Shown: one piece after another, positions 383 to 14,457 of the stretch
How the letters are laid out: each line of letters starts with the position of its first letter
How positions within the stretch are numbered: position 1 is the first letter of the stretch
Notes under the pieces: generated by a model
The model's database searches: none
What the model was told of the DNA's origin: nothing
Seen by the model: the letters and a program-made list of their open reading frames with translations, nothing else
Origin: an uncultured Hyphomicrobiales bacterium
GTDB lineage: Bacteria; Pseudomonadota; Alphaproteobacteria; Rhizobiales; Beijerinckiaceae
DNA: 64,000 nucleotides
Direction of reading: 5' to 3'
Assembly: GCA_903861645.1 (NCBI GenBank)
Contig: CAIOVE010000103.1
Location: 62,001-126,000, forward strand
Program-made: the position numbers and the translations under genes

Positions 383-1345
383 CTATCGCGCGAAAAAATC
401 CGTCGCCTCGACGAGTTTGCGCGTGATGCCCGGCTCGCTGGTCGCGTGGCCCGCGTCGTTGACAATATCGAAGCGCGACGACGGCCAGAGCCGGTGCACC
501 TCCCAGGCGGTGGTCGGCGGCGTCACCACGTCATAGCGCCCTTGCACGATGATGCCGGGAATATGCATGATACGCTCCATGTCGGCGATGACGCGACCTT
601 CGCCGATGAAGGCGTCGTTGATGAAATAATGCGCCTCGATGCGCGCGAGCGCGCGCGTGTGCTCGCCGGCGCCCGCGCTGAAATTCGACGAGCGCGGCGC
701 GAGCGTCATCAGCGCCGCCTCCCACGTGCACCAGGCGCGCGCCGCCTCGCGTTCGACTTCCGCGTCGCCGCTGAACAGCCGACGATGATAGGCGCGGGGC
801 AGATCGCCGCGTTCGTCCTCGGGCACGAAGGTCGCGAATTTTTCCCAGCGCTCGGGAAACAGTTCCGACGCGCCGTGCTTGTAGAGCCAGTCGACCTCGC
901 GCCGACGCGCGGTGAACACGCCGCGCAGCACGAGCGCCTCGACCCGCGCGGGATGCGTCTGCGCGTAGAGCAACGCCAGCGCGGCGCCCCATGAGCCGCC
1001 CAGCACCACAAAACGATCGATCCGCAGATGTTCGCGCAAACGCTCGATGTCGTCGACCAGCGCCATCGTCGTGTTGCCGGCGACCTCGCCGAGCGGGCGC
1101 GACTTGCCGCAGCCGCGCTGATCGAACAGGACAATGCGATAGCGCCGGGGATCGAAGAGACGGCGATGGTCCGCGTAGCAACCGCCGCCGGGACCGCCAT
1201 GCAGGAACAGCGCGGGCTTGCCCGCGGGATTGCCGCTCGCCTCGTAATAAATCTGGTGGTCGTCGCCGACATCCAGCATGCCGCTTTCATGCGGCTGGAT
1301 GGAAGGGTAGAGCGCGCCGGGGCGGGCAAGGGTTTCGGCGATCAC
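383..1345 (-). CDS. pip: Proline iminopeptidase (alpha/beta hydrolase, S33)
   Basis: A 320-residue cytoplasmic alpha/beta hydrolase that should release N-terminal proline from peptides. Visible family marks are the oxyanion-hole HGGPGGG near residue 49, the nucleophile elbow GGSWGAAL with the catalytic Ser near residue 117, an Asp in 'QGRYDVVTPP' and a C-terminal 'DAGHA' His. Length fits the family (310-330). The start is a GTG that overlaps the stop of the upstream EutA-like gene as GTGA, so it is probably the last gene of the minus-strand unit cupin - EutA-like - pip. The peptidase activity may not be related to the cupin system; co-transcription is an inference. Confidence 0.92.
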   Translation of the reverse strand: MIAETLARPGALYPSIQPHESGMLDVGDDHQIYYEASGNPAGKPALFLHGGPGGGCYADHRRLFDPRRYRIVLFDQRGCGKSRPLGEVAGNTTMALVDDIERLREHLRIDRFVVLGGSWGAALALLYAQTHPARVEALVLRGVFTARRREVDWLYKHGASELFPERWEKFATFVPEDERGDLPRAYHRRLFSGDAEVEREAARAWCTWEAALMTLAPRSSNFSAGAGEHTRALARIEAHYFINDAFIGEGRVIADMERIMHIPGIIVQGRYDVVTPPTTAWEVHRLWPSSRFDIVNDAGHATSEPGITRKLVEATDFFAR

Positions 1346-2862
1346 GCGACCCTCTCGGCCTCGACGCGACCGAGCGCCGACGTCGTCGGGAACACCAGCG
1401 ACTTGATCACCACGGGCACGGCGCCGGATGTCTCCAGCATCGCGCCTATGTCGATGAAGTCGAACTCCTTCAGCACGATGCCGTCGATCGACACGATGGG
1501 ATTGGCGATCCTGGCCTCTTCGAGCGCGTGGATACCCACGAGCCCGCCGATATCGCCATCGCCGACGAGAATGAGCGGATGGCCATTCGCGAGTTGCGCC
1601 GCGAGGCCTTTCGCGACACCCTTGCAGAAGTCATCGAGGCGACGGAACATCGCCGAGCCGCCCCAGCGATAGCAGACCGCCACCGGCTGCTCGCCCTCGT
1701 GCAGATCGAGCCGGCGCAGCGCCGCGCGCACCGCGGCGGCGATGGCGTCCTGATCGAGATCGTCGGCGTCCAATGCAAAATCCGGCGTCACCACGGGAAT
1801 ATTCCGCAACGGCAAGGTGTCAAGCGGCGCGACGAAGATCGTGCTGCCGCTGACCTGTATGGTGTATTGCGAGGCGCCGACGACGGTGGCGCGAATGCCT
1901 TCGTCGGGCTTGGCGATGCGCTGGCCCCAGGCGTCGACGCGCTTCTTGATGGCGCGCGCGAGCAACGGCCCGAGATCGCCGAAACCACTGTCCTGCCGGT
2001 TGTAGATATATTCGGAAACGCCGCCCGAAAACGTCACGACATCGGGCGCGCGCGCGTTGCGCAGCGGATCGAGCCGAAGCAACGCCGCCGTTTCAGCGGA
2101 CAGGGTCGGCGCGGAAATGACCTCGAACAGCCGGTCGGCCATGCGCTCGACCATGAGGCCAAGATCGGCGGGCGATGGTTTCGAGCCGATGTCGAGTTGC
2201 AGACCCGCCTCCTTGGCGAAGCGACGACCGGCCTCCTCGAGCCGGACGACAACGCCATGCTTGTCGAGCGCGATGACGCGCGCGCCAACGTCAACCGCCG
2301 TCATCTCGGCGATCTCGCCATCCGCGCATACGGCGATCTTCGACGTGCCGCCGCCGATGTCGATGTTCATCACGCGGTTGGATTCGCGAATGGAGCGCGC
2401 GGCCGCGCCCGAGCCAAAGGCCGCCAGCGTGGTCTCAAGCCCGTCGCCCGCCGAAACGGACACGAACTTGCCCGCCTGCGCCGCGAACAATTCGCCGATC
2501 GCCCGCGCGTTGGAGCGACGCACCGCGACGCCCGTCAGGATCAGCGCGCCCGTGTCGATGGCCGCGGGATCGAGCAGCGCCATGTCGTACTGGCGGTTGA
2601 TGAAATCGCCCAACGCCTTCGCGTCGATGGTCATGTCGTCGGCGTAGGGCGTCAGCAACACGTCGGATTCATGGACGATCTCGCGCTCGCTGACGATGTA
2701 GCGATTGTCGAGACGTTCGAGCACGAGCCGCGAGAACACCAGATGCGATGTCGACGAACCGATGTCGACACCAACGCTGACGAGGCGGATTTCATCCTCC
2801 TCCTCCAGGCTGCGCCGAACATTGGAGAAAAAAACGCGACCGCCAACGGGTTCATCGCTCAT
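1342..2862 (-). CDS. EutA-like ASKHA ATPase 1 (ethanolamine ammonia-lyase reactivase family)
   Basis: A 506-residue protein that matches EutA along its length. It has the phosphate-1 loop GVDIGSSTSH (about residues 31-40), 'DTGALILTGVAVRRSNARA' (about 103-121), the phosphate-2 loop NIDIGGGTSK (about 166-175) and an adenosine-type 'FSGGVSEYIY' near 278. EutA is an ATPase that exchanges damaged cobalamin out of ethanolamine ammonia-lyase. No eutB or eutC exists in the window, so the client must differ or lie elsewhere. A good ribosome site (GAGGAG) precedes the ATG. It lies 30 bases after the bicupin gene at 2893-4119 on the same strand and overlaps pip, indicating an operon. A second, longer paralogue is at 5188-6924. 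Confidence 0.85.
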   Translation of the reverse strand: MSDEPVGGRVFFSNVRRSLEEEDEIRLVSVGVDIGSSTSHLVFSRLVLERLDNRYIVSEREIVHESDVLLTPYADDMTIDAKALGDFINRQYDMALLDPAAIDTGALILTGVAVRRSNARAIGELFAAQAGKFVSVSAGDGLETTLAAFGSGAAARSIRESNRVMNIDIGGGTSKIAVCADGEIAEMTAVDVGARVIALDKHGVVVRLEEAGRRFAKEAGLQLDIGSKPSPADLGLMVERMADRLFEVISAPTLSAETAALLRLDPLRNARAPDVVTFSGGVSEYIYNRQDSGFGDLGPLLARAIKKRVDAWGQRIAKPDEGIRATVVGASQYTIQVSGSTIFVAPLDTLPLRNIPVVTPDFALDADDLDQDAIAAAVRAALRRLDLHEGEQPVAVCYRWGGSAMFRRLDDFCKGVAKGLAAQLANGHPLILVGDGDIGGLVGIHALEEARIANPIVSIDGIVLKEFDFIDIGAMLETSGAVPVVIKSLVFPTTSALGRVEAERVA

Positions 2863-2892
2863 CGAAACAAACTCCTCGCGGCAGCGTTCTCG

Positions 2893-4119
2893 TTACACCA
2901 CGTCCTTGCGCGTATCCGCGTCGTTGGGCTTCAGGTACCACTTGGGGTCCATGCGGCAAGGCACGCCGTTCTGGCGCAGTGTTTCCTCGTATTCGTTGCG
3001 GATATACGGGTCTTCCATCCAGTACGGGATCGCGGTGCCGCCCTGATTGACGTCGATCGCCGTATAATCCGTATGCTTCTGGCCGGGCGCGCCGGGGTCG
3101 CGGCCGGGATTGTGCGGGCCGAACCACGCGGTCAGCCGGAAGTCGTCCTTCGAGACGCTGAAATGCTGGTGATACCAGCGCGCGCCGCCCGGCGCCGCCG
3201 TCACCATGCCAATCGGTTCGTAGTCGAGCCGGTTGACCTGATCGGCCTGACCGGTTTCCCACGGCCGCTCGCCGCAATGCTCGGGCCAGGAATAAGTGTA
3301 GCCCTTGCCCTTCAGGCAAATCAGGATCGCCGCGGACGTGTGCGCGTGGCCCTTGGAATAGCGCCCGTTCTCGTGCTGGCCGATCCAGAAATAGAACGAG
3401 TTGTTGGTCATCAGCGGCTCGACGCGGCGATAGCCAACCGAGCGACGGTTATCGAGCGGCAGTTCGCAGTTGATGACGTCGGGAATGAAGTTCGTCTTGC
3501 GCATGGCGAGGCCACGCACCGGATCGGGCTCGATATCGTCCTTCGGCTTGAAGAAGTCATCGGCGCCCGAGAAGCGATCCTTGAAGACGAAGGGATTGCT
3601 GAACACCGCGTCCGCGTTCTGCAGCGCGTTCAGAACCACCGGCGCCGTGGTGCCGCCGAGCAGCAGCGCGCCGCCCGAGGTCGCGTTGACCAGACGATGC
3701 ATGGCGTTCATCGGGATCGAGAACATCGAGCCCTTCTGCCACTCGAAAACATGCTTCTTGCTGTCGCCCTCGAGCCAGACTTCCGTCGAGCCGCGGCCTT
3801 CCACCACGAGGAAGATTTCCTCGTACATGTGTTTTTCCGGGTTCAGCGCGCCGCCCGGCGGAATTTCGACGACGTAGCAGCCCCACTTCGTCTCGGTGCC
3901 GTAAAGCTGGATGAAGTGGCCGCGACCGCCGGTGCGCTTCCACGGCACGAGCGGCAGGTTCTGCACCTTGGAAATGCCGATGCCACGGAAAACCGGCAGG
4001 CCCTCGGATTCCATCCACGCGTCATAGGGCGTCGGCTGCTTGGCGAACTCGCCGAAACCCGCCTTTTTCGTGCCCGCCGGCTCGTGCCAGTGAACTCCGT
4101 CTTTCCCGTCGTGCGGCAT
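2893..4119 (-). CDS. Bicupin protein A (putative metal-dependent dioxygenase-like)
   Basis: A 408-residue protein with two cupin domains, in the size range of gentisate dioxygenase-type bicupins but without clear identity to any named enzyme. Domain 1 (about 80-150) has a degraded first motif: EKH at 95-97 replaces HxH, with E100 and H141 retained. Domain 2 (about 245-325) keeps H258-x-H260 in 'GHAHTSAAIL' and H317/H319 in 'YHQHFS', so a metal site is probable there; the usual Glu is absent. An AGGAG site sits before the ATG. It is upstream of EutA-like 1 on the same strand. It shares the H-Q-H-F motif with the four plus-strand cupins. The substrate is unknown. Confidence 0.8.
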   Translation of the reverse strand: MPHDGKDGVHWHEPAGTKKAGFGEFAKQPTPYDAWMESEGLPVFRGIGISKVQNLPLVPWKRTGGRGHFIQLYGTETKWGCYVVEIPPGGALNPEKHMYEEIFLVVEGRGSTEVWLEGDSKKHVFEWQKGSMFSIPMNAMHRLVNATSGGALLLGGTTAPVVLNALQNADAVFSNPFVFKDRFSGADDFFKPKDDIEPDPVRGLAMRKTNFIPDVINCELPLDNRRSVGYRRVEPLMTNNSFYFWIGQHENGRYSKGHAHTSAAILICLKGKGYTYSWPEHCGERPWETGQADQVNRLDYEPIGMVTAAPGGARWYHQHFSVSKDDFRLTAWFGPHNPGRDPGAPGQKHTDYTAIDVNQGGTAIPYWMEDPYIRNEYEETLRQNGVPCRMDPKWYLKPNDADTRKDVV

Positions 4120-4182
4120 GGCGCTTCTCCTGATGGTTTAACGGGCTAGATCGACCAAAGGCGAAGACCTGTCAATGCGCTG

Positions 4183-5028
4183 TCACCGCGTCGATGGAGG
4201 CGGCGACTGGAGAACCGAGCGCAGCGACCGCCAGACCCGGTTTTTCCATTCGACGGCGGGCGGTCCCGGCAGCGTTTCCGGCGCGCTGCCGGCGCGCGCC
4301 GCGCAGTCGGGAGTCAGTCGCGCGAGGGCGATTTCGCCGTCTGTGTAATAGCGGTCGCCGCCGCCATTGCGACCCATCAGCGTCTGGCCAACCCCGGTCA
4401 CCTCATAGACGCCATCGACGACGCCCGCGCGCGTCAGCGCCGCGATCAAACCGTCCCGCTCGGCGTCGATGTCCGCGTCGATATGGTGCGTCACCTGCAA
4501 AGTATAGCGGCTGAAACCAACGCCGCGATCGAAGCTGGCCGCGCCGAGCCAGACCGGCCGGCCCTCCTCACCATTCTCCAGCGCTTGCCAGAGGCGCACG
4601 TGGTGGCGCGTGTCGGCGCTGCGGCCCGCCGCGCGCTGGAACGACAGATCCTCGCGTCGGCCATCGAGATAGAGCGCGCTGACCGGCGCCGCCGGATAAG
4701 GCCGGTCGAGAACCACGCTGCCGACGATTTTAAGGCTCGACGCCAGCGTAACCGGGTCGGCCGGCGCCCACCCCGCCGCGTGAAAGGCGCAGACAACGTC
4801 GGATTGGGAGCCCACGAAGCCCACGTTGAGCGGGTCGCCGGGTATTCCCTGCGAGGTGCGCGTGACCATCTCCCGCCCCTCGAGGCCGCGCTGGTGTTCG
4901 TAATGCCGCCATATCAGCGGCAGCGCCGCGTAGGCCAGCCCCGCCCAGACCAGCGCGACCACGCCCACCACCGCCCAGAGCCGGCGGTTTGCGAGGCATT
5001 TGACGAAGGTTTTGACGGAAATGGTCAA
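4183..5028 (-). CDS. Membrane-anchored LssY C-terminal domain protein
   Basis: A 281-residue protein with one N-terminal membrane segment (about residues 16-38, 'LWAVVGVVALVWAGLAYAAL') followed by a soluble LssY_C-type domain: 'GDPLNVGFVGSQSD', 'AAGWAPADPVTLASSLK', 'RPYPAAPVSALYL', 'RHHVRLW', 'GAASFDRGVGFS' and 'VTHHIDADIDAERD'. In larger proteins this domain follows DedA/PAP2-like membrane domains; its function is not established. It is transcribed toward the bicupin A gene but 63 bases separate the two. It shares a 159-base divergent intergenic region with EutA-like 2. Whether it belongs to the cupin system is unclear. Confidence 0.75.
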   Translation of the reverse strand: MTISVKTFVKCLANRRLWAVVGVVALVWAGLAYAALPLIWRHYEHQRGLEGREMVTRTSQGIPGDPLNVGFVGSQSDVVCAFHAAGWAPADPVTLASSLKIVGSVVLDRPYPAAPVSALYLDGRREDLSFQRAAGRSADTRHHVRLWQALENGEEGRPVWLGAASFDRGVGFSRYTLQVTHHIDADIDAERDGLIAALTRAGVVDGVYEVTGVGQTLMGRNGGGDRYYTDGEIALARLTPDCAARAGSAPETLPGPPAVEWKNRVWRSLRSVLQSPPPSTR

Positions 5029-5138
5029 GCTCGCGTTTGCATATCCGACGCGCCGGATGGGGCGCCGCGGTCGACGTTCACCTTACCCCTTCCCGCGCCG
5101 CGCGCGAAGAACGCGCCGCCGTTGACTCCCGCGTCAGC

Positions 5139-5159
5139 ATGGGCGAACCAGACGCCCAT
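5139..5159. promoter_or_regulatory. Perfect 7-bp inverted repeat upstream of EutA-like 2
   Basis: ATGGGCG at 5139-5145 is matched by CGCCCAT at 5153-5159 with a 7-base spacer, 28 bases before the ATG of EutA-like 2 and inside the divergent region shared with the LssY_C gene. It could be an operator or a leader hairpin; no regulator gene is adjacent. Confidence 0.3.
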
Positions 5160-5187
5160 TCAGGCTTGCAGGGAGTTCGGACGGACC

Positions 5188-6924
5188 ATGGCTGACGAAA
5201 ACGACAAGAAGCCCGCCGTCCATTCCATGAACGAGCATTCGATGGGCCAGGAATGGTCCCATGAACACGACGGCGAAGCCGACCACGACCACGACGAATT
5301 CGATTACGACGGTCCGCTGGAGGAAAATCCCCTCTGGATTCAGGACAATGTCACCCTCGTCAGCGTCGGCATCGACATCGGCTCCTCCGGCACGCAGGTC
5401 ATTTTCTCGAAAATTCACCTGCGCCGTCTCGCCGAGGATCTGACCAGCCGCTATTACGTCGTTTCACGTGAAACCCTTTACTTGTCGCCGGTTTCGCTGA
5501 CCCCCTATTCCAGCGAAACCCGCATCGACGACGCCGCCCTCAAACAGATCGTGCAGGACGCCTACGACGGCGCCGGGGTCAAGCCGGGCGACATCGACGC
5601 CGGCGCCGTGATTTTGACCGGCGAGGCGCTCAGGCGCGAAAACGCGCAGGGCATTTCCAAGATGCTGTCCGAACAGGGGGGCGACTTCGTCTGCGCCACC
5701 GCCGGCCATCACATGGAGTCCATGCTGGCGGCCTACGGTTCGGGCGCGGCGCAGGCCTCACTTGATCTCGGCAAGCGCGTGCTCAACATCGACATCGGCG
5801 GCGGCACCACCAAGCTCGGGCTGGTCGAGGGCGGCCAGTGCAAGACAACCGCGGCGGTTCACATCGGCGGGCGCCTGATGGTCGTCGACGAGAATTTCAG
5901 GCTGGTGCGCCTCGATCCCGCCGGCAGGCACCACGCGCGTCGGGCCGGCTTCGACTGGAAGCTCGGCGATACCGTGACCTCGGCCGACCTCGACAAGGTC
6001 GCCGACGGCATGGCGGAGACCCTCGTCAGCGCGCTGGCGCAACGCCCGATGCCGCACGACGTCGAGCATCTGTATCTCACCGATCCCATCCTCGATTTCG
6101 GCGACATCGGCGGCATGATGTTTTCCGGCGGCGTCGCCGAATATGTCTACGCCCGCGAGGAGCGCGACTTCGGCGATCTCGGCAAGCGGCTCGGCTCGGC
6201 CATCGCCCGCAAGATCGCGGCGGGACGGTTCCCCTGGACCCTTCTGCCGGCGCGCGAATGCATCCGCGCCACGGCGCTCGGCGCGTCGGAATATTCCGTT
6301 CAGCTTTCCGGCAACACCAGCTACATCTCAAACCCCGGCGTGCTGCTGCCGCGCCGCAATCTGCAGGTGCTGCAACCGCCCTGCGAATTCGGCGACGAGA
6401 TCGACGCGGAGGCGCTGGGCAAGGCGATCATCTCGCACCGCAAGGCCTTCGAGGTCGAGGACGCGGCGATCGACATCGCGCTGGCCTTTCACTGGAAGGG
6501 CTCGCCGGAGTTCGGCCGCATCTTCGCGCTGGCCAAGGGCATCGCGGCGGGCATGGCCGACCATATCGCGCAGGGCAAGCCAATCTACGTGATGCTCGAT
6601 GGCGACATCGCGCAGACGCTGGGCGCCGTGCTGCGCGAGGATTGCAAGGTGAACAGCGAAATCCTCGTGATCGACGGCGTAATGCTGATGGATTTCGACT
6701 ACATCGACCTCGGCAAGGTGCGCATCCCCTCCTTCACCGTGCCCGTGACCATCAAGTCGCTGGTGTTCAGCGAGGATCCGCGCGGCCCTCGCGCGAAGGA
6801 GCGCATCCATCACCGCGAGGAAGATGGCCACCATCATCATCATGGGCATGACCACGGGCATCATCATCACCATGGCCATGGTCACGGACATCATCATCAC
6901 CACGACCACGACCACAAGCATTAG
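5188..6924 (+). CDS. EutA-like ASKHA ATPase 2 with histidine-rich ends
   Basis: A 578-residue EutA homologue. The ATG at 5188 is chosen because GGGAG lies 13 bases upstream and EutA similarity begins only after it, although the frame stays open back to 4483. The N-terminus is His/Asp-rich (residues 24-40). The ATPase loops are GIDIGSSGTQ (about 61-70), NIDIGGGTTK and FSGGVAEYVY. The last 38 residues contain 24 histidines in HHHHH blocks separated by G/D, as in metallochaperones such as HypB or CooJ. This tail is absent from EutA-like 1 and from classical EutA (about 470 residues). It heads the plus-strand unit that continues with an ABC permease 28 bases on. A reactivase role with metal delivery is an inference. 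Confidence 0.85.
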   Translation: MADENDKKPAVHSMNEHSMGQEWSHEHDGEADHDHDEFDYDGPLEENPLWIQDNVTLVSVGIDIGSSGTQVIFSKIHLRRLAEDLTSRYYVVSRETLYLSPVSLTPYSSETRIDDAALKQIVQDAYDGAGVKPGDIDAGAVILTGEALRRENAQGISKMLSEQGGDFVCATAGHHMESMLAAYGSGAAQASLDLGKRVLNIDIGGGTTKLGLVEGGQCKTTAAVHIGGRLMVVDENFRLVRLDPAGRHHARRAGFDWKLGDTVTSADLDKVADGMAETLVSALAQRPMPHDVEHLYLTDPILDFGDIGGMMFSGGVAEYVYAREERDFGDLGKRLGSAIARKIAAGRFPWTLLPARECIRATALGASEYSVQLSGNTSYISNPGVLLPRRNLQVLQPPCEFGDEIDAEALGKAIISHRKAFEVEDAAIDIALAFHWKGSPEFGRIFALAKGIAAGMADHIAQGKPIYVMLDGDIAQTLGAVLREDCKVNSEILVIDGVMLMDFDYIDLGKVRIPSFTVPVTIKSLVFSEDPRGPRAKERIHHREEDGHHHHHGHDHGHHHHHGHGHGHHHHHDHDHKH

Positions 6925-6952: not shown

Positions 6953-8695
6953 GTGGCGATGGAAGCGGCGGCGACGCGCAACCCGACGGGCGACCGCCCC
7001 GAGTCAGCGTACGACGCGCGCGCGCCCTTGCTCGGCGTCGTCGTCGCGGCCATCGCCTGGCTGGCGCTGGCACCCCTCGGCTTCCTGATCTGGCAAAGCT
7101 TCATGACGCCACGCGTCGGGTCGCGGCCGGCGCGGTTCACGCTGGGCAATTTCGTCGAGGCCTACGCGAGCCCCGACACCCTGCCCCTCTTGATCAACTC
7201 GCTTGAATTCGCCGCCGGCGCCTCGGTGCTGGCGCTTGTCGTGGGCGCGCTGCTGGCGTGGATCCACGAGCGCACGAATACACCATTTAAATCCATGATC
7301 TACGCGCTTTCCGTGGTGCCGCTGGTCATTCCCGGCATTCTCTTCGTGGTCGCGTGGATCATGCTGGCGAGCCCCAAGATCGGGCTGTTCAATCTGGCTT
7401 TCCAGCGAACCTTCGACACGGACGCCACGCTGGTCGACATCTACTCGCTCGGCGGCATGATTTTCGTCGACGGCCTGCATTATTCGCCCATCGCCTTCCT
7501 GTTGATGACGGCGGCGTTTCGCGCCATGGACCCCTCGCTGGAAGAGGCCGCGATGATGAGCGGCGCCTCGACGACCGGCGTCGCCCGGCGCGTCACGTTC
7601 GGGCTGGCGTGGCCGGCGGTCGCGGCGTCCTTCCTGATCCTGTTCATCAGGGCGATTGAGTCCTTCGAAACCCCCGCCCTGCTCGGCCTGCCCGTCGGCA
7701 TCGAGGTCTTCACCTCGGCGATCTACGACGCGATCCACCGCTACCCCAGCAATATCGGGCTGGCCGCGGCCTACGCGCTGTTGCTGCTGGCGCTGACCGG
7801 CGGCGGGATCTGGTGGCAATCGCGCATCGCCTCGCGCGGCGGACGCTACGCGACGGTCGGCGGCAAGGGGTTCCGCCCGCGGGTGATGGACATCGGCGGC
7901 TGGCGCTGGGCGACCGGCGGGTTTTTCGTCGTTTACGCCCTGCTCGTCGTCGGCCTGCCCTTCCTCGTGCTGCTGTGGAGCTCGCTGCAAAAATTCTACA
8001 GCGTCCCCTCCTGGGCGGCCTTGAAAAACATCACGCCCAAGGCCTACGCCACGGTGCTGGCCTATCCCAACGTGGCGACGGCGGCCTGGAACAGCGCCTT
8101 GCTCGCCATCGAGGGCGCGACCATCGTCATGCTGCTGACGGCCGTGGCCTGCTGGATTATCCACCGCACGAAAATCCCTGGTCGCTGGCTGCTTGACGGC
8201 GTCGCCTCGGCGCCGCTCGTCATCCCTGGCCTCGTGATGGGTCTTGCGATCATGGTCAGCTACCTGTCCCTTGGCGGCGGCGTTTACGGCACGATCTGGA
8301 TCATGCTGATCGCCTATGTGACGCGCTTCCTGCCCTACGGCATGCGCTACAACACGACCTCGATGATCCAGCTTCACCCGGAGCTGGAGGAATCCGCGGC
8401 TATGTCCGGCGCCTCGTGGGCGCAGAGTTTCCGGCGCATCGTGCTGCCGCTGCTCAAGCCCGGCCTCGTCGCGGGCTGGATCTATATCGTCATCGTCTCC
8501 GTCCGGGAGTTGTCGAGTTCGATTTTGCTCTATAGTCCGGGTACGGAAGTGATCTCGGTGGTTATCTGGGAGCTCTGGCAGAATGGACAGTACGTGGAAC
8601 TGTCCGCGCTGGGCGTGATGCTCATTGCCGCGCTGTTCGTCTTCGTGATGGCGGCGCAGGCCCTGAGCAGGCGGTTTGGCGTGCGCGAACCATAG
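6953..8695 (+). CDS. ABC transporter permease, fused double-domain Fe(III)/polyamine-type
   Basis: A 580-residue inner-membrane protein with about 12 hydrophobic segments, made of two tandem permease domains. Each half has an EAA-type loop that contacts the ATPase: 'EEAAMMSGASTTGVARRV' in the first half and 'EESAAMSGASWAQSFRRI' in the second. This architecture is typical of FbpB/AfuB-like ferric-ion permeases and relatives for 2-aminoethylphosphonate, thiamine and putrescine. The start is GTG at 6953 behind CGGGAGG. The ATPase follows at 8715 and a binding protein of the matching family occurs at 13420, after four cupin genes. The transported substrate is not predictable. Confidence 0.9.
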   Translation: MAMEAAATRNPTGDRPESAYDARAPLLGVVVAAIAWLALAPLGFLIWQSFMTPRVGSRPARFTLGNFVEAYASPDTLPLLINSLEFAAGASVLALVVGALLAWIHERTNTPFKSMIYALSVVPLVIPGILFVVAWIMLASPKIGLFNLAFQRTFDTDATLVDIYSLGGMIFVDGLHYSPIAFLLMTAAFRAMDPSLEEAAMMSGASTTGVARRVTFGLAWPAVAASFLILFIRAIESFETPALLGLPVGIEVFTSAIYDAIHRYPSNIGLAAAYALLLLALTGGGIWWQSRIASRGGRYATVGGKGFRPRVMDIGGWRWATGGFFVVYALLVVGLPFLVLLWSSLQKFYSVPSWAALKNITPKAYATVLAYPNVATAAWNSALLAIEGATIVMLLTAVACWIIHRTKIPGRWLLDGVASAPLVIPGLVMGLAIMVSYLSLGGGVYGTIWIMLIAYVTRFLPYGMRYNTTSMIQLHPELEESAAMSGASWAQSFRRIVLPLLKPGLVAGWIYIVIVSVRELSSSILLYSPGTEVISVVIWELWQNGQYVELSALGVMLIAALFVFVMAAQALSRRFGVREP

Positions 8696-8714
8696 GGAAC
8701 GGGGAGGAATACGC

Positions 8715-9851
8715 ATGTTGAGCGTCAAGGGACTCAACACCGAATACAAGACGCAGAAGGGGCCGGCCGTGCAGGCCGCGCGCAACGTGGCCTTCGAGGC
8801 GCCAAAGGGCGTGTTCTTCACCCTCCTCGGTCCGTCGGGCTGCGGCAAGACCACGACGCTGCGCTCCATCGCCGGCCTTGAGCGCCCGACCTCCGGCGAG
8901 ATCGAGGCCAACGGCCGCGTCGTCTATTCCTCCGCCCAGGGCGTTTTCGTTCCGCCAAACAAGCGCAACTTCGGCATGGTCTTCCAGTCCTACGCGATCT
9001 GGCCGCACATGACCGTGTTCGCCAACGCCGCCTTCCCGCTGGAAGTGCGCAAGAACAGGCTCAACAAGAGCCAGATCGCCGAAAAGGTGATGAAGGTGCT
9101 GCACGCGGTCGGCCTCGACCATCTGGCCGAGCGCGATGCGACGCGTCTTTCGGGCGGCCAGCAGCAGCGCCTCGCGCTCGCCCGGGCGCTCGTCATGGAG
9201 CCGGAAATCCTGCTGCTCGACGAGCCCCTGTCGAACCTCGACGCCAAGCTGCGCGAGAAAATGCGCTTCGAGCTCAAGCGCATCCAGCGCGAGCTTGGCC
9301 TGACCACGATCTACGTCACCCACGATCAGGGCGAGGCGCTGGCGCTGTCGCACGAAATCGCCGTGATGAGCGAGGGCCGGATCGTCCAGATCGGCTCGCC
9401 GCGCACGATCTACGAGCGGCCCGCCAACCGCTTCGTCGCCGACTTCATCGGCACGACCAATTTCATCGACGGCACGGTGCTTGGACACGACGACGCCACG
9501 AAACTCTATCGCGTGCGCACGCCCATCGGCGATCTGCTGGTGACCAGCGACGCGCCGCTCGCCGGCGGCGCTCCCGTCACGCTTTCGATTCGTCCCGAGG
9601 ACGTGGAATTAACCGAGGACGCGGCCCCCGAGGACCGATTGATCAATCTGTCGTCGGGCATGGTTGACGCCAAGGTTTTCCTCGGCGATATCGTGGATTT
9701 CCAGGTCAAGGTTGGCGATGTCATGCTGCTTTCGCGGGCGCATCCCTCGCTGCGCACCCCGGTCGGCGACAAGATCAATATCCGCATGGACCCGCTGAAA
9801 TGCGTGGCCCTGCCCGCGGAACCCGCCGTCGCCGCGCAAGCCGCCGCCTGA
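8715..9851 (+). CDS. ABC transporter ATP-binding protein, Fe(III)/polyamine-type
   Basis: A 378-residue ATPase with Walker A GPSGCGKTT (about residue 40), Q-loop 'FGMVFQSYAIWPHMTV', signature LSGGQQQR, Walker B ILLLDEP with 'LSNLDAKLREKMR', and the H-loop 'YVTHDQGEAL'. The C-terminal ~100 residues are a TOBE-like regulatory domain ('SIRPEDVEL'), as in PotA/FbpC proteins. ATG at 8715 is preferred because GGGGAGG sits just upstream; the frame is open back to 8676, which would overlap the permease. It pairs with the permease at 6953 and most likely with the binding protein at 13420. Confidence 0.93.
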   Translation: MLSVKGLNTEYKTQKGPAVQAARNVAFEAPKGVFFTLLGPSGCGKTTTLRSIAGLERPTSGEIEANGRVVYSSAQGVFVPPNKRNFGMVFQSYAIWPHMTVFANAAFPLEVRKNRLNKSQIAEKVMKVLHAVGLDHLAERDATRLSGGQQQRLALARALVMEPEILLLDEPLSNLDAKLREKMRFELKRIQRELGLTTIYVTHDQGEALALSHEIAVMSEGRIVQIGSPRTIYERPANRFVADFIGTTNFIDGTVLGHDDATKLYRVRTPIGDLLVTSDAPLAGGAPVTLSIRPEDVELTEDAAPEDRLINLSSGMVDAKVFLGDIVDFQVKVGDVMLLSRAHPSLRTPVGDKINIRMDPLKCVALPAEPAVAAQAAA

Positions 9852-9876: not shown

Positions 9877-10995
9877 ATGGCCAAGGACGCAAAAGTTTCC
9901 GACGATCTCGCCCAGAAATTCGCCACCGAGAAGGACACGCCCTATCTGCGCTGGGTGCGCGACGAGGGTCTGGACATCATCAGCGCGCACTACATCCGCA
10001 ACCTGCGCACGGTCGAGCTGAAGCCCTGGGCGCGACGCGGCGGCAAGGGCGTCTTCATCAATCACGAGGCCTCCCGCACCTCGAACGATTGCTACGTCTG
10101 CGAAATCCCCACCGGCGGCAAGCTCGCGCCGCAGCGCCAGCTCTTCGAGGAAATGGTGCTCGTGCTGGAAGGCCGCGGTTCGACCTCGGTCTGGAACGAC
10201 GCCGGCGCGCGCATCACCTTCGAATGGAAGGCCGGCGCGCTCTTCGCCATTCCACTGAACTGCTGGCACCAGCACTTCAACGGCTCGGGCACGGAGCCCG
10301 CGCGCTTCGTCTCCGTCACCAACGCGCCGCCGGTCATCAACCTGTATGAAGACACCCACTTCGTCTTCAACACGCCGCATGACTTCAAGGAGCGCTTCTC
10401 GGGCGAGCCGGACTATTTCGCCAACAAGGGCGAGCAGAAGGGCTTCCTGCTGACCACCAACTTCGTGCCGGACGCGCCGAACATCCCGCTTATCTCGGCC
10501 AAGGAGCGCGGCGCCGGCGGCGGCCACATCCGCTTCAACATGGCCAAGGGCTCGATGAACAGCCACATCTCGCAGTTCCCGATCGGCACCTACAAGAAGG
10601 GCCACGCGCATGGCCCCGGCGCCCACGTCATCATTCTCGGCGGTCAGGGCTATTCGCTGATGTGGCCGGAGGGCGAGGAGCCGCGCCGCTACGACTGGGA
10701 AATCGGCACCATGATCGTCCCGCCGAACATGTGGTTCCACCAGCACTTCAACACCGGCACGACGCCCTCGCGCTATCTGGCGTTCAAGCACGAGGTCGTG
10801 TCGATCCGCAATTCGCAGGGCGTGCCGAAGGCGTGGATCAGCAAGCGCGTCGGCGGCGACCAGATCGACTACGTCGACGAGAAGCCCGTCATCAAGACGA
10901 TGTTCAAGGACGAACTCGCCAAGGTCGGCCTCGAGCCGAAAATGGACGAGGCCTACAAGACCGAACTCGAAACGCTGCCGCCGAAGGTCGCGTAA
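9877..10995 (+). CDS. Bicupin protein B
   Basis: A 372-residue protein with two cupin domains. In domain 1 the first motif reads P-Q-R-Q (Q86, Q88) where HxH is expected, with E91/E92 kept and H131/H133 in the second motif, so its metal site is altered. In domain 2, H243-x-H245, H250 (in place of the usual Glu) and H288/H290 ('FHQHFN') are present, giving up to five clustered histidines. It follows the ATPase gene by 25 bases with a TAGGAG site. It is strongly similar over its full length to the next gene (11049-12161), indicating tandem duplication. Enzymatic role unknown; gentisate dioxygenase-like or other bicupin oxygenase or isomerase chemistry is possible. Confidence 0.82.
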   Translation: MAKDAKVSDDLAQKFATEKDTPYLRWVRDEGLDIISAHYIRNLRTVELKPWARRGGKGVFINHEASRTSNDCYVCEIPTGGKLAPQRQLFEEMVLVLEGRGSTSVWNDAGARITFEWKAGALFAIPLNCWHQHFNGSGTEPARFVSVTNAPPVINLYEDTHFVFNTPHDFKERFSGEPDYFANKGEQKGFLLTTNFVPDAPNIPLISAKERGAGGGHIRFNMAKGSMNSHISQFPIGTYKKGHAHGPGAHVIILGGQGYSLMWPEGEEPRRYDWEIGTMIVPPNMWFHQHFNTGTTPSRYLAFKHEVVSIRNSQGVPKAWISKRVGGDQIDYVDEKPVIKTMFKDELAKVGLEPKMDEAYKTELETLPPKVA

Positions 10996-11048: not shown

Positions 11049-12161
11049 ATGGCCAGGAACGCCGTCGTCTCGGACGATCTCGCGGGCAAGTTCTCGACCG
11101 AAAAGGACACCCCGTATCTGGCGTTCGTGCGCGAGGAAGGCCTCGACGTCATCCCCGCCAATTACGTGCCCAATCTGCGCACGGTTGAGCTCAAGCCCTG
11201 GGCGCGGCGCGGCGGCAAGGGCGTCTATATCAATCACGACGCGTCTCGCACCTCGAACGACTGTTACGTCTGCGAAATCGCGCCCGGCGGCAAGCTGGTC
11301 CCCCAGCGCCAGCTCTACGAGGAAATGATCCTCGTTCTGGAAGGCCGCGGCTCGACGACGGTCTGGAACGACGCGGGCGCGCACATGACCTTCGAGTGGA
11401 AGGCCGGCGCCATTTTCGCGATTCCGCTCAACTGCTGGCATCAGCATTTCAACGGCTCGGGGCAGCAGCCCGCGCGCTATGTCGGCGTCACCTTCCTGCC
11501 GTCGGTGCTGAACATGTACGGCGACAAGGATTTCGTCTTCAACACGAAGTACGACTTCCTGAACCGCTTCAATGGCGAACCCGACTATTTCGCCGCCAAG
11601 GGCGAGCAGAAGGGCTTCCTTCTGACCACGAATTTCGTGCCGGACGCGGTCAATCTGCCGCTGATTTCCGCCAAGGAACGCGGCGCGGGCGGCGGCCACA
11701 TCCGCTTCAACATGGCGCGCGGCTCGATGGCGAGCCACATCTCGCAATTCCCGGTCGGCACCTACAAGAAGGGCCACAAGCACGGCCCCGGCGCGCATGT
11801 CATCGTGCTCAGCGGCGAGGGCTATTCCCTCATGTGGACGGAGGGCGAGGAGCCCAGGCGCTACGACTGGCAGCCGGGCACCCTCATCGTGCCGCCGAAC
11901 GCCACCTTTCATCAGCATTTCAACACGGGGCCGACGCCGGCCCGCTATCTGGCCTTCAAGCACTCCTCGCCGCGCAACGCTCAGGGCGTGCCGATGTCGT
12001 GGATCAGCAGCCGCGTCGGCGGCTATCAGATCGACTACGCCGACGAGACCAAGCGGCTGCGCGACATGTACGCCGAGGCGCTGGCCCGGCACGGGCTCAA
12101 GCCGAACATGGACGACGCCTACACGAAGGAACTGGAGACGCTGCCGCCCAAGATCGCCTGA
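11049..12161 (+). CDS. Bicupin protein C (tandem paralogue of B)
   Basis: A 370-residue bicupin that aligns almost without gaps to bicupin B. The start ATG at 11049 is behind CGGAGG. Domain 1 has the same PQRQ substitution (86-88) and 'WHQHFN' (130-135). Domain 2 has H243-K-H245, H250 and 'FHQHFN' at about 288-292. Conserved blocks such as 'NLRTVELKPWARRGGKG' and 'GEQKGFLLTTNFVPDA' are identical in both copies, while segments around 155-165 and 305-320 differ. It starts just after a strong terminator, so it may depend on read-through or its own promoter. Both copies may act as a hetero-oligomer or on different substrates. Confidence 0.82.
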   Translation: MARNAVVSDDLAGKFSTEKDTPYLAFVREEGLDVIPANYVPNLRTVELKPWARRGGKGVYINHDASRTSNDCYVCEIAPGGKLVPQRQLYEEMILVLEGRGSTTVWNDAGAHMTFEWKAGAIFAIPLNCWHQHFNGSGQQPARYVGVTFLPSVLNMYGDKDFVFNTKYDFLNRFNGEPDYFAAKGEQKGFLLTTNFVPDAVNLPLISAKERGAGGGHIRFNMARGSMASHISQFPVGTYKKGHKHGPGAHVIVLSGEGYSLMWTEGEEPRRYDWQPGTLIVPPNATFHQHFNTGPTPARYLAFKHSSPRNAQGVPMSWISSRVGGYQIDYADETKRLRDMYAEALARHGLKPNMDDAYTKELETLPPKIA

Positions 12162-12246: not shown

Positions 12247-12828
12247 GTGAGCGAACTCGAGCCGGCGGGCGCTGGCCACAACAGCAGCGCCATGGCCAAG
12301 GAAGAAGTGGTCTGGGAACGCTGGACCAAGAAGCGCGTCTTCGTCCGCGCGCTGGAAGGCACCTACGGCGAACTGGTGCGCGAACTGTTCAGCCAGCCGC
12401 GCGTCTATCCCACCCGCGACCACAAGTGGAAGGGCGGCCCCGGCCATTACGGCAAGAAGATCATCAACCCGCAGGCGGTCAAGGTGGCGCAGTCCATCGA
12501 AACCCACGTCGAGGTTTTCTCCCCCGGCGGCTACGGCCAGAAGCACGGCCACATGAACAGCGCCGTGTTCTTCGTGCTCAAGGGCAAGGGCCACGACGTG
12601 CACGACGGCAAGCGCTACGACTGGGAGGCGGGCGACGCCCTCATCGTCGAGAACGCCTGCGTGCATCAGCATTTCTCGGACGAACCCGACGATGAATGCA
12701 TCACGCTCGTGATGAAGGCGAAACCGCTGTTTCTCTTCATGCACATGCTGTTTCAGAAGGTGGTCGATTTCCCGCCCAAGGACGCCACCGCCAAGCAGGC
12801 GGTTTACACCCCGCCCGCCGACCTGTGA
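12247..12828 (+). CDS. Single-domain cupin protein D
   Basis: A 193-residue protein with one cupin fold in its C-terminal half. Motif 1 is 'GGYGQKHGHMNSAVFFVLKG' with H100 and H102 and no Glu in the usual position; motif 2 contains H140 and H142 ('VHQHFS'). The N-terminal ~90 residues have no recognised domain and include 'AGHNSS', a short motif seen at the start of many rhizobial proteins. The start is taken as GTG 12247; ATG 12292 is an alternative that would remove 15 residues. It follows bicupin C by 85 bases and precedes cupin E by 8 bases. Function unknown. Confidence 0.75.
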   Translation: MSELEPAGAGHNSSAMAKEEVVWERWTKKRVFVRALEGTYGELVRELFSQPRVYPTRDHKWKGGPGHYGKKIINPQAVKVAQSIETHVEVFSPGGYGQKHGHMNSAVFFVLKGKGHDVHDGKRYDWEAGDALIVENACVHQHFSDEPDDECITLVMKAKPLFLFMHMLFQKVVDFPPKDATAKQAVYTPPADL

Positions 12829-12836
12829 GGGAAGCC

Positions 12837-13391
12837 ATGTCCTTTATCGATCCGCGCGAACGCGCCGCCGCCCATCTCCAAACGCCCCATGTCGACTTCT
12901 ACGCGGAAGCGTTGAAGGCCTCGGCGCAATTCCGCGACGACTACGAAGGTCGCATGAATATCGTCAAGGCGAGCGAAATGCCTTTCGAGCGCTCGCCGAA
13001 CGGCCTGATCAAGCACATCATCAACGAGCGCATGAACACCAAGGAATGCTGCCTCGACATCTACATGCAGTTCCTGCCGGGCGGCAAAGCCTCCGGCACG
13101 CACCGCCATCTGTCGGAGGAAGTGTTCTATGTCGTCGAGGGCCACGGCTATGATCTCCATTGGGATCTGCGCTTCGACTGCCACGACAAGATGGAATTCG
13201 ATTGGGAAACCGAGCCGAAGAAATTCGAATGGCAGGCCGGCGACTTCGTCTACATTCCGCCCTACTGCGCCCACAAGCACTTCAACGCCGACCCGACGCA
13301 GGAAGCCCGCATCATCGTCTGCAACAGCCGGATACTGAAGCCCATGGGCTTCGACTGGTTCGAGCAGATCGAGAACGCGGAAGGGTACTGA
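12837..13391 (+). CDS. Single-domain cupin protein E
   Basis: A 184-residue protein with the most canonical cupin motifs of the cluster: H89-x-H91 with E94/E95 ('GTHRHLSEEVFYVVEG') and H146/H148 in 'PPYCAHKHFN'. A normal 2- or 3-His plus Glu metal centre is therefore likely. The loop between the motifs is enlarged (about residues 105-130, Asp- and Trp-rich). The ATG follows GAGGGA, 8 bases after cupin D, so the two are translationally close. The binding protein gene follows 28 bases later. Possible roles include dioxygenase, decarboxylase or isomerase; none can be selected from sequence. Confidence 0.78.
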   Translation: MSFIDPRERAAAHLQTPHVDFYAEALKASAQFRDDYEGRMNIVKASEMPFERSPNGLIKHIINERMNTKECCLDIYMQFLPGGKASGTHRHLSEEVFYVVEGHGYDLHWDLRFDCHDKMEFDWETEPKKFEWQAGDFVYIPPYCAHKHFNADPTQEARIIVCNSRILKPMGFDWFEQIENAEGY

Positions 13392-13419: not shown

Positions 13420-14457
13420 ATGTCGTCGACGCGCGCCCTGTGCGCGGCGGCGCTGTGCGCGCTCGCCACGGGCGTTCGCGCGCAAGCGGCCGATGTCGCG
13501 ACGCTGGCATCCTATACCGGCCCCGATCGCGCCGACAAGCTCGCCGAGGGCGCGCGGCGCGAGGGAACGCTGAATCTGTATTCCTCGCTGACGACCGAGG
13601 ATCTTGGCGTCCTCGGCGCGGCCTTCGAGAAGAAATACGGCGTAAAGCCCACGTTCTGGCGCGCCAGCAACGAGGACATCCTGCAACGCGCCGTCGTCGA
13701 GGCGCGCGGCGGACGCCGCACCGTCGACCTTTACGAGACCGGCGCGGCGAGCCTCGAGGGACTGCGCCGGGAAAGCCTGCTGCAACCGGTTGTCTCGCCT
13801 GTCTTCGCCGAGTTGATGCCGCAGGCGACAGCGCCCGGCGCGTGGATCGGCACGCGCCTTCAGATCATCACGGCGGCTTACAACACCAATTCGGTGCGCG
13901 CGAGCGCGTTGCCCAAGTCCTATGCCGACCTCGCCGATCCCAGATGGAAGGGCAAGCTCACCATCGAGGCGGGCGACACGGATTGGCTGGCGACCCTTCT
14001 GACGGCGCTCGGCGAGGAGCCAGGCGAAAAGCTGCTGCGCCAGATCGTCGCCGCCAATGGCGTATCCGTCCGCAAGGGGCACACGCTGATCGCCAATCTC
14101 GTCGCCGCGGGCGAGGCGCCCGTGGCGATCACGACATACCTCTACAAGGTCAACCAGTTGAAGGCGTCCGGCGCGCCCATCGATTCATTCCAGCTTGACC
14201 CGACCGTGGCGCGCGTCGATGGCGTCGGTCTGGCCGCCGGCGCCCCGCATCCCAACGCCGCCCTTCTGTTCATGGACTTCATGCTGGGCGAGGGGCAGGC
14301 CATTCTTGCCGGTCGGGAATTTTTCCCGACCAACCTCAAGGCTGGCAAATCGCTCGACGGCATGAAGCTGGCCTTCAGCGACGCCGGCAAACAGCTCGAC
14401 GAGAGCGAACGCTGGGAAAAACTCTACAACGACATTTTCGGCCGTCGTTCGCGCTGA
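13420..14457 (+). CDS. ABC transporter periplasmic binding protein, Fe(III)/polyamine-type
   Basis: A 345-residue exported protein. The N-terminal ~23 residues are a signal peptide ending near 'GVRAQA'. The mature part has the FbpA/AfuA-type start 'REGTLNLYSSLTTEDL', 'LPKSYADLADPRWKGKLTIE' and a C-terminal 'EGQAILAGREFFPTN'. It lacks an obvious twin-Tyr ferric site, so an organic ligand is as likely as iron. It is the natural partner of the permease (6953) and ATPase (8715); the four cupin genes lie between. This placement links transport with the cupin enzymes. Confidence 0.85.
   Translation: MSSTRALCAAALCALATGVRAQAADVATLASYTGPDRADKLAEGARREGTLNLYSSLTTEDLGVLGAAFEKKYGVKPTFWRASNEDILQRAVVEARGGRRTVDLYETGAASLEGLRRESLLQPVVSPVFAELMPQATAPGAWIGTRLQIITAAYNTNSVRASALPKSYADLADPRWKGKLTIEAGDTDWLATLLTALGEEPGEKLLRQIVAANGVSVRKGHTLIANLVAAGEAPVAITTYLYKVNQLKASGAPIDSFQLDPTVARVDGVGLAAGAPHPNAALLFMDFMLGEGQAILAGREFFPTNLKAGKSLDGMKLAFSDAGKQLDESERWEKLYNDIFGRRSR

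Follow-up and report, generated by a model that had tools for sequence, protein, structure and literature searches.

A branch of EutA-family ATPases linked to bicupins and its possible role in cupin metal upkeep

Introduction

What do EutA-family ATPases do where the genes around them encode cupins? EutA is an ATP-driven exchanger of damaged cobalamin for intact cofactor in ethanolamine ammonia-lyase (EutBC), and to our knowledge this reactivation is its only known job. The question is raised by a 64,000-nucleotide stretch of DNA from an uncultured Hyphomicrobiales bacterium (contig CAIOVE010000103.1; hereafter the window), in which two EutA-family genes, EutA1 and EutA2, lie among genes for cupins, including two-domain bicupins. 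On balance, we lean towards the reading that the branch of EutA proteins to which both belong is a dedicated ATPase partner of the bicupin that loads or renews its metal, possibly nickel, and is not a partner of ethanolamine ammonia-lyase. The EutA–bicupin partnership is well supported by sequence comparison because the two genes are adjacent, occur in the same genomes and match in partner type, and because no EutB was found in the genome. The mechanism and the identity of the metal are inferred by analogy, given the known action of EutA, the histidine-rich ends of the proteins and the metal genes nearby.

Results

EutA1 and EutA2 are full-length members of the EutA family

A preliminary description of the window reported two EutA-like ATPases of 506 and 578 residues with complete ATP-binding loops. 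Their open reading frames match the Pfam profile PF06277 at positions 3-474 (EutA1) and 2-474 (EutA2) of 475, far over the Pfam cut-off of 27 bits (Table 1), which confirms both as full-length family members. The DIGGGT and SGGV stretches, which we take to be the ATP-binding loops, show little or no variation across an alignment of 12 sequences, two of them EutBC-linked EutA proteins. With best scores of 325.6 and 331.5 bits, respectively, EutA1 and EutA2 miss the NCBIfam EutA cut-off of 598 bits. Apart from EutA, Pfam gives EutA1 a weak MreB match and yields no P-loop GTPase domain of the HypB or UreG kind, and the EutA profile run against the PDB finds four remote matches, namely two phosphohydrolase entries, MreB and EutJ. 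An iron–sulphur activator of the benzoyl-CoA reductase kind was rejected because no cysteine occupies an invariant or near-invariant column of the 12-sequence alignment. Membership in the EutBC-serving EutA group was rejected as well, given the genome without a detected EutB, the low NCBIfam scores and a separate tree branch.

The source genome (G000) encodes four full-length EutA copies, two of them in the window. The copy on contig C37 adjoins a bicupin, and the copy on contig C61 adjoins two single-domain cupins. A search aimed at EutB, and not at other B12-dependent enzymes, did not find it in the whole genome, whereas its E. coli positive control matched; eutB, first noted as not visible in 64 kb, was thus not found genome-wide either. 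Further bicupin matches lie on contigs of this genome without a full-length EutA (C98:39931-41097, C21:6304-7479, C9:6935-8023 and C43:68616-70714).

Cupin genes adjoin EutA in several lineages

EutA copies were gathered blind to their neighbours; cupins, EutB, EutC and nickel genes were then sought among the surrounding open reading frames. The Pfam profile was used for a class draw of 289 genomes. A query of four cupin-linked copies (query A1) was used for a genome-contig scan, a phylum draw of 398 genomes, the class of a Chloroflexi metagenome-assembled genome (MAG; 29 genomes) and the orders around Streptomyces lanatus (245 genomes), Alicyclobacillus suci (59) and Actinophytocola (200); for some genomes, the phylum, order and Chloroflexi searches scored only a subset of the candidates. 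Plasmids were searched with EutA2 itself, and two of the 25 plasmid records with EutA entered the pooled set of 85 copies, from which second EutA–bicupin pairs on plasmids were excluded. Because the query A1 samples favour the cupin-linked branch, the proportion of cupin-linked copies should not be read as a census of PF06277. The term cupin in these counts takes in single-domain cupins (L007, L038, L043 and L056).

A same-strand cupin lies within 300 bp of EutA in 59 of the 85 copies, and eight more have a cupin within 3.5 kb. EutB adjoins seven copies, a contig end truncates three, and none has both cupin and EutB neighbours. An adjacent or near cupin accompanies 16 of 17 copies in the class draw, 12 of 15 in the contig scan, 3 of 3 in the Streptomyces order, 6 of 6 in the Alicyclobacillus order, 12 of 13 in the Actinophytocola order, 16 of 24 in the Chloroflexi class and 2 of 2 on plasmids; in the phylum draw, a cupin is near none of the five copies, all of which adjoin EutB. 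Of the 59 adjacent pairs, 36 overlap or stand no more than 20 bp apart (with gene starts called mechanically). Two doubts raised at the outset, that most homologues might sit beside eutBC and that cupin linkage might be peculiar to one genome, were not borne out in the samples taken: only the seven copies adjoin EutB, and the linkage recurs in loci of Alphaproteobacteria, Streptomyces, Actinophytocola, Alicyclobacillus and Chloroflexi. Chance or purely local linkage was rejected on the neighbour counts, the shared occurrence and the partner-type matching.

Four Chloroflexi EutA-like genes have no cupin found nearby (L103:8314-10071, L104:8401-10152, L105:8342-10009 and L109:4640-6283). Those of L104, L105 and L109 adjoin Rieske genes, and that of L103 adjoins amidohydrolase genes; the L103, L104 and L105 proteins carry histidine-rich tails with 13, 19 and 17 histidines, respectively. 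Judging from these sequences, the EutA branch may serve more than cupins. A copy of the EutA1 clade, L046:9125-10687, also has neither cupin nor EutB nearby, and the translations upstream of it are presumably a KdpD-type sensor kinase and a response regulator.

EutA and bicupins occur in the same genomes

A bicupin profile at E <= 1e-60 detects bicupins in seven of the 289 class genomes (G000, G104, G113, G122, G210, G216 and G226). Six of these encode full-length EutA, and the seventh, G226, holds a contig-edge EutA fragment (C116:8-127) beside its bicupin (C116:215-1276). PF06277 matches 220 of the 289 genomes at E <= 0.001 and 32 over the Pfam cut-off. Counted as EutA were 17 copies above 300 bits in six genomes and the G226 fragment; the remaining matches listed score at most 32 bits over a partial profile and were taken for other ATPases of this fold. 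No further class genome has a EutA match above 33 bits among the matches listed. The probability of such a coincidence is 3e-14 if the genomes are independent; they belong to four families and are not independent, and the true figure is therefore larger. On plasmids, bicupin B1 of the window finds four of 72,556 records, all four among the 25 with EutA. Each of the four has two places for both proteins, and in the annotation of Phyllobacterium zundukense both EutA–bicupin pairs stand side by side.

EutB is absent from all five other class genomes searched (G104, G113, G122, G210 and G216) and was not found in seven of the 13 contig-scan genomes, several of which are MAGs. Among the six contig-scan genomes with EutB, two have EutBC-type loci (Photorhabdus and Halegenticoccus) and four are of the cupin type. 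Three of these four (G655, G657 and G663) yielded no EutA in the stretches retrieved around EutBC; EutB and EutC genes of this kind, in three genomes that carry a cupin-linked EutA, lie at L078:6361-8567, L079:7105-9176 and L080:6011-8100. The distribution is patchy; in the Streptomyces lanatus order, for example, 4 of the 245 genomes searched are positive. A phage-integrase-family gene near the Alicyclobacillus suci cluster (L060:17389-18294) is consistent with lateral movement.

EutA clades match bicupin types

A EutA tree of 86 rows was built by a quick method with SH-aLRT support, four short rows being left out. One branch (support 97) separates 12 EutBC-linked EutA proteins from 74 others, 65 with cupins and nine without; the EutBC row L073 sits on a very long branch. 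The clade that contains EutA1 has 14 rows and that of EutA2 has 25, each with a support of 100. Where a same-strand bicupin lies within 3.5 kb, it is of type A in 12 of 12 copies of the EutA1 clade and of type B in 23 of 23 copies of the EutA2 clade; two copies in each clade have no such bicupin. The window, L053 and L059 hold both types in one stretch, each EutA with its own partner type. Across 51 adjacent pairs, EutA and cupin distances correlate at r = 0.81, a value reached in 0 of 2000 permutations and to which shared locus ancestry contributes.

Histidine-rich ends and nickel genes accompany part of the branch

At least three histidines occur in the 45 or fewer residues before the ATPase domain in 56 of the 61 non-EutBC copies outside the EutA1 clade. 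These extensions contain 4.5 histidines on average, with about 0.9 expected from the composition of the ATPase domain, and motifs such as HDHDHDD recur in them, although some extensions may be called too long. None of 11 EutBC-linked copies has a histidine-rich extension, and these proteins start almost at the ATPase domain. A C-terminal tail with at least five histidines is present in 10 of 52 comparable copies. Histidine-rich tails are needed in SlyD and not in UreE (PMC7055735), and the histidine-rich ends are for this reason no more than suggestive.

Nickel genes (HoxN/NicT, NicO-like or NikR) were identified by similarity in 11 of 75 non-EutB loci and in none of seven EutB loci, counts that have no background rate. 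HoxN/NicT transporters occur in all seven Alicyclobacillus-order loci and in Phyllobacterium, a NicO-like gene lies 9 bp from EutA in L043 and L056, and NikR is near EutA in L053 (5.2 kb away) and Phyllobacterium. In family checks on 6 + 5 proteins, two HoxN/NicT proteins pass an NCBIfam subfamily cut-off, two NikR proteins pass theirs, and that of L056, NicO-like, clears the Pfam threshold alone. Near the second Phyllobacterium pair, at a distance of two genes, is YjbE, a putative gene for metal transport. The locus of the window itself has no HoxN, NicO or NikR match in its first 20 kb.

Three loci share a run of UbiD, EutA-like and small cupin genes followed by others, among them RidA-family, ornithine-cyclodeaminase-family and NMT1-type genes (L043:7576-14751, L056:513-7807 and L038:7611-12204). 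In L043 and L056 the order is UbiD-EutA-NicO-cupin, so that the EutA-like gene has a UbiD decarboxylase gene on one side and a nickel-transport-like gene on the other.

The bicupins retain a multi-histidine site

In 70 bicupins of these loci, the domain-2 residues His243, His245, His288 and His290 are kept in 68, 65, 70 and 68 sequences, respectively, and the first-domain site is degenerate. The nearest PDB sequence match is remote (gentisate 1,2-dioxygenase 3bu7, E 4.5e-6, 28.9 bits), and the bicupins score below the NCBIfam cut-offs for 5-aminosalicylate dioxygenase (32-33 versus 650 bits) and gentisate dioxygenase (about 20 versus 442). EutQ is the cupin of the eut operon; an assignment of these cupins to EutQ was rejected, as no EutQ match appears among the Pfam families listed.

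Recurrent neighbours of the EutA and cupin genes are LigXa-like Rieske oxygenases, NMT1-type proteins, which we take to be relatives of 4,5-dihydroxyphthalate decarboxylase, TctABC transporters, class II aldolases, amidohydrolases, molybdenum hydroxylases and UbiD, with a PdxA-family gene in two loci. Because of these families, the gene clusters look like catabolic clusters for aromatic carboxylates. A small protein is encoded near the Rieske gene of cupin–EutA clusters in six loci (e.g. L054:5574-6068, L059:9447-9944 and L082:10302-10823). Its length is 165-173 residues in the two copies tested, of which that of L059 has no Pfam match and that of L082 no NCBIfam match.

Gene organization of the window

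Pfam confirms the earlier observation that the two EutA genes flank a bicupin and an LssY_C gene and that their neighbours are cupins (Table 1). Upstream of EutA1 on the minus strand lie bicupin A and then the LssY_C gene. EutA2 heads a plus-strand run of the permease, the ABC ATPase, two bicupins, cupins C and D and the solute-binding protein. The order EutA-permease-ATPase-bicupin recurs in locus L051, and cupins C and D recur beside the C61 EutA and in seven Alicyclobacillus-order loci. Every NCBIfam score shown for the permease is under its cut-off. The LssY_C gene was rejected as a component of the system and looks incidental to it because no homologue was found in the other 81 loci scanned. 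Since gene starts were called mechanically, gaps, overlaps and extension lengths are approximate.

Table 1. EutA, cupin and neighbouring features of the window
Feature	Position	Strand	Basis
EutA1, EutA-family ATPase, 506 residues, no His-rich extension	1342..2862	-	PF06277 388 bits; 14-row clade
Bicupin A, 408 residues	2893..4119	-	Cupin_2 + Cupin_1; 30 bp upstream of EutA1, same strand
LssY_C-domain gene	4183..5028	-	PF14067 229 bits; between EutA1 and EutA2
EutA2, EutA-family ATPase, 578 residues, ATG at 5188	5188..6924	+	PF06277 390 bits; 25-row clade
His/Asp-rich N-terminal extension of EutA2	5188..5352	+	Read from sequence
C-terminal tail of EutA2, His-rich (24 of 51 residues)	6769..6921	+	
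ABC transporter permease, two-domain	6953..8695	+	Best NCBIfam PhnU2, 125.5 vs cut-off 593 bits
ABC transporter ATPase	8676..9851	+	Read from translation; clusters with genes of 6 other loci
Bicupin B1, 372 residues, type B	9877..10995	+	Cupin_2
Bicupin B2, 370 residues, type B, 77% identity to B1	11049..12161	+	Cupin_2, two stretches
Single-domain cupin C	12247..12828	+	Cupin_2
Single-domain cupin D	12837..13391	+	Cupin_2
ABC solute-binding protein	13420..14457	+	SBP_bac_6

Discussion

How could a EutA-like ATPase serve a cupin? In the mechanism that we propose, the bicupin would depend on a metal and might act as a ring-cleaving dioxygenase in the catabolism of an aromatic carboxylate. The EutA-like protein would bind the bicupin, and ATP would open or remodel the metal site, such that a spent or wrong metal is released and the right one is let in, similar to the cobalamin exchange by EutA. 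The His/Asp-rich N-terminal extension of most members and the histidine-rich tail of some may hold the metal. In the window, EutA1 would serve bicupin A, and EutA2 would serve both B bicupins. Nickel would be the likeliest metal where NicT/HoxN or NikR is linked, and elsewhere it may be another divalent ion. Nickel would fit four lineages and also the chemistry of the nickel quercetinase QueD, which works with nickel and a 3His/1Glu or 4His site (PMC4416304); a term search of PMC4416304 for chaperone, transporter and the like gave no match. A more specific proposal is tentative, namely that a widespread branch of the EutA family acts as an actin-fold, ATP-driven nickel insertase and reactivase and that its bicupin clients form a new, nickel-dependent family of ring-cleaving dioxygenases; we regard it as clearly less probable than the general reading. 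Of the preliminary suggestion that these ATPases tend the metal of cupins, the genomic linkage stands, and the metal part has gained circumstantial support (histidine-rich extensions, NicT/HoxN and NikR neighbours and the multi-histidine cupin site). The alternative offered with it, a client enzyme encoded elsewhere, is less likely.

Several observations weigh against a dedicated metal-tending partner of the bicupin. Eight of the 85 EutA copies, none at a contig end, have neither cupin nor EutB nearby, and several of them adjoin Rieske genes. Conversely, several bicupins of the source genome (on C98, C21, C9 and C43) lie away from any EutA, and the cupin-type genomes G655, G656, G657 and G663 also encode EutB. 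Nearest-neighbour agreement between EutA and cupin is just 29 of 51. The EutA1 clade is without the histidine-rich extension (0 of 14, with no histidine in that of EutA1 itself), and 64 of the 75 non-EutB loci, that of the window included, have no nickel gene found nearby, 7 of the 11 positives coming from one order.

The tight pairing and the matching partner types would also fit subunits of one two-component enzyme, in which ATP would drive the reaction on the substrate (activation, carboxylation or the like) and not upkeep of the cupin, and other ATPases of this broad fold do act in catalysis. However, over its full length the branch resembles the reactivase EutA rather than a catalytic family, and the histidine-rich ends and nickel genes would be left unexplained; we therefore consider this explanation unlikely, although it fares best among the rivals. 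Nearly level with it, and slightly less probable in our estimate, is a folding, assembly or regulatory ATPase that acts on the bicupin without metal transfer. Such a function fits all of the partnership evidence and the EutA1 clade without extensions, whereas the extensions of the 56 other copies and the tails of ten speak against it. Do the two genes merely travel together, in one laterally moved catabolic cassette and without mutual action? Patchy distribution and the Rieske, TctABC and other pathway genes that the clusters have in common are compatible with hitch-hiking, but it is the bicupin, not the other pathway genes, that recurs adjacent to EutA in otherwise different clusters, and the types match without exception, which makes this explanation improbable. 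Least probable of all is reactivation of EutBC or another B12 enzyme encoded elsewhere, with the cupin as a bystander: the EutBC without a detected EutA in three genomes, the only job of EutA that we know of and the ability of HoxN/NicT to carry cobalt too would suit it, but it is opposed by the genomes in which EutB was not found, by the separate tree branch and by the bicupin-type matching.

In comparison with known systems, the window proteins resemble EutA (PF06277) in the full-length profile match and the conserved ATP-site stretches, and they differ from it in the bicupin partner, the separate branch and the N-terminal extension (histidine-rich in EutA2). They share with the nickel chaperones HypB, UreE/UreG and SlyD the combination of a nucleotide hydrolase or chaperone with histidine-rich stretches (in EutA2, not in EutA1) and, in some lineages though not at the locus of the window, adjoining nickel transport or NikR genes; HypB and UreG are GTPases of another fold. 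The diol and glycerol dehydratase reactivases are actin-fold proteins that exchange damaged cofactor in an ATP-dependent manner, a likeness drawn from their general description and not from sequence, and they serve B12 enzymes. The bicupins resemble gentisate 1,2-dioxygenase and other cupin dioxygenases in the conserved multi-histidine site and score far under the family cut-offs, and we know of no dedicated ATPase for cupin dioxygenases. A link between EutA and cupins was not found reported among the open-licence papers listed (subscription papers and preprints were not searched).

What would such a partner mean for cupin biology? The name EutA is probably wrong for many proteins of soil bacteria. 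The general view is that cupin enzymes acquire their metal without help, and a dedicated ATPase partner, if true, would alter this picture and could account for cases in which a cupin dioxygenase produced on its own lacks activity or carries the wrong metal. We know of no actin-fold metallochaperone and no dedicated maturation factor for a cupin enzyme, and a nickel insertase, if confirmed, would be the first of either kind. Furthermore, the system offers a concrete way to ask if reactivation of the EutA type is a general form of cofactor exchange that extends beyond B12 enzymes.

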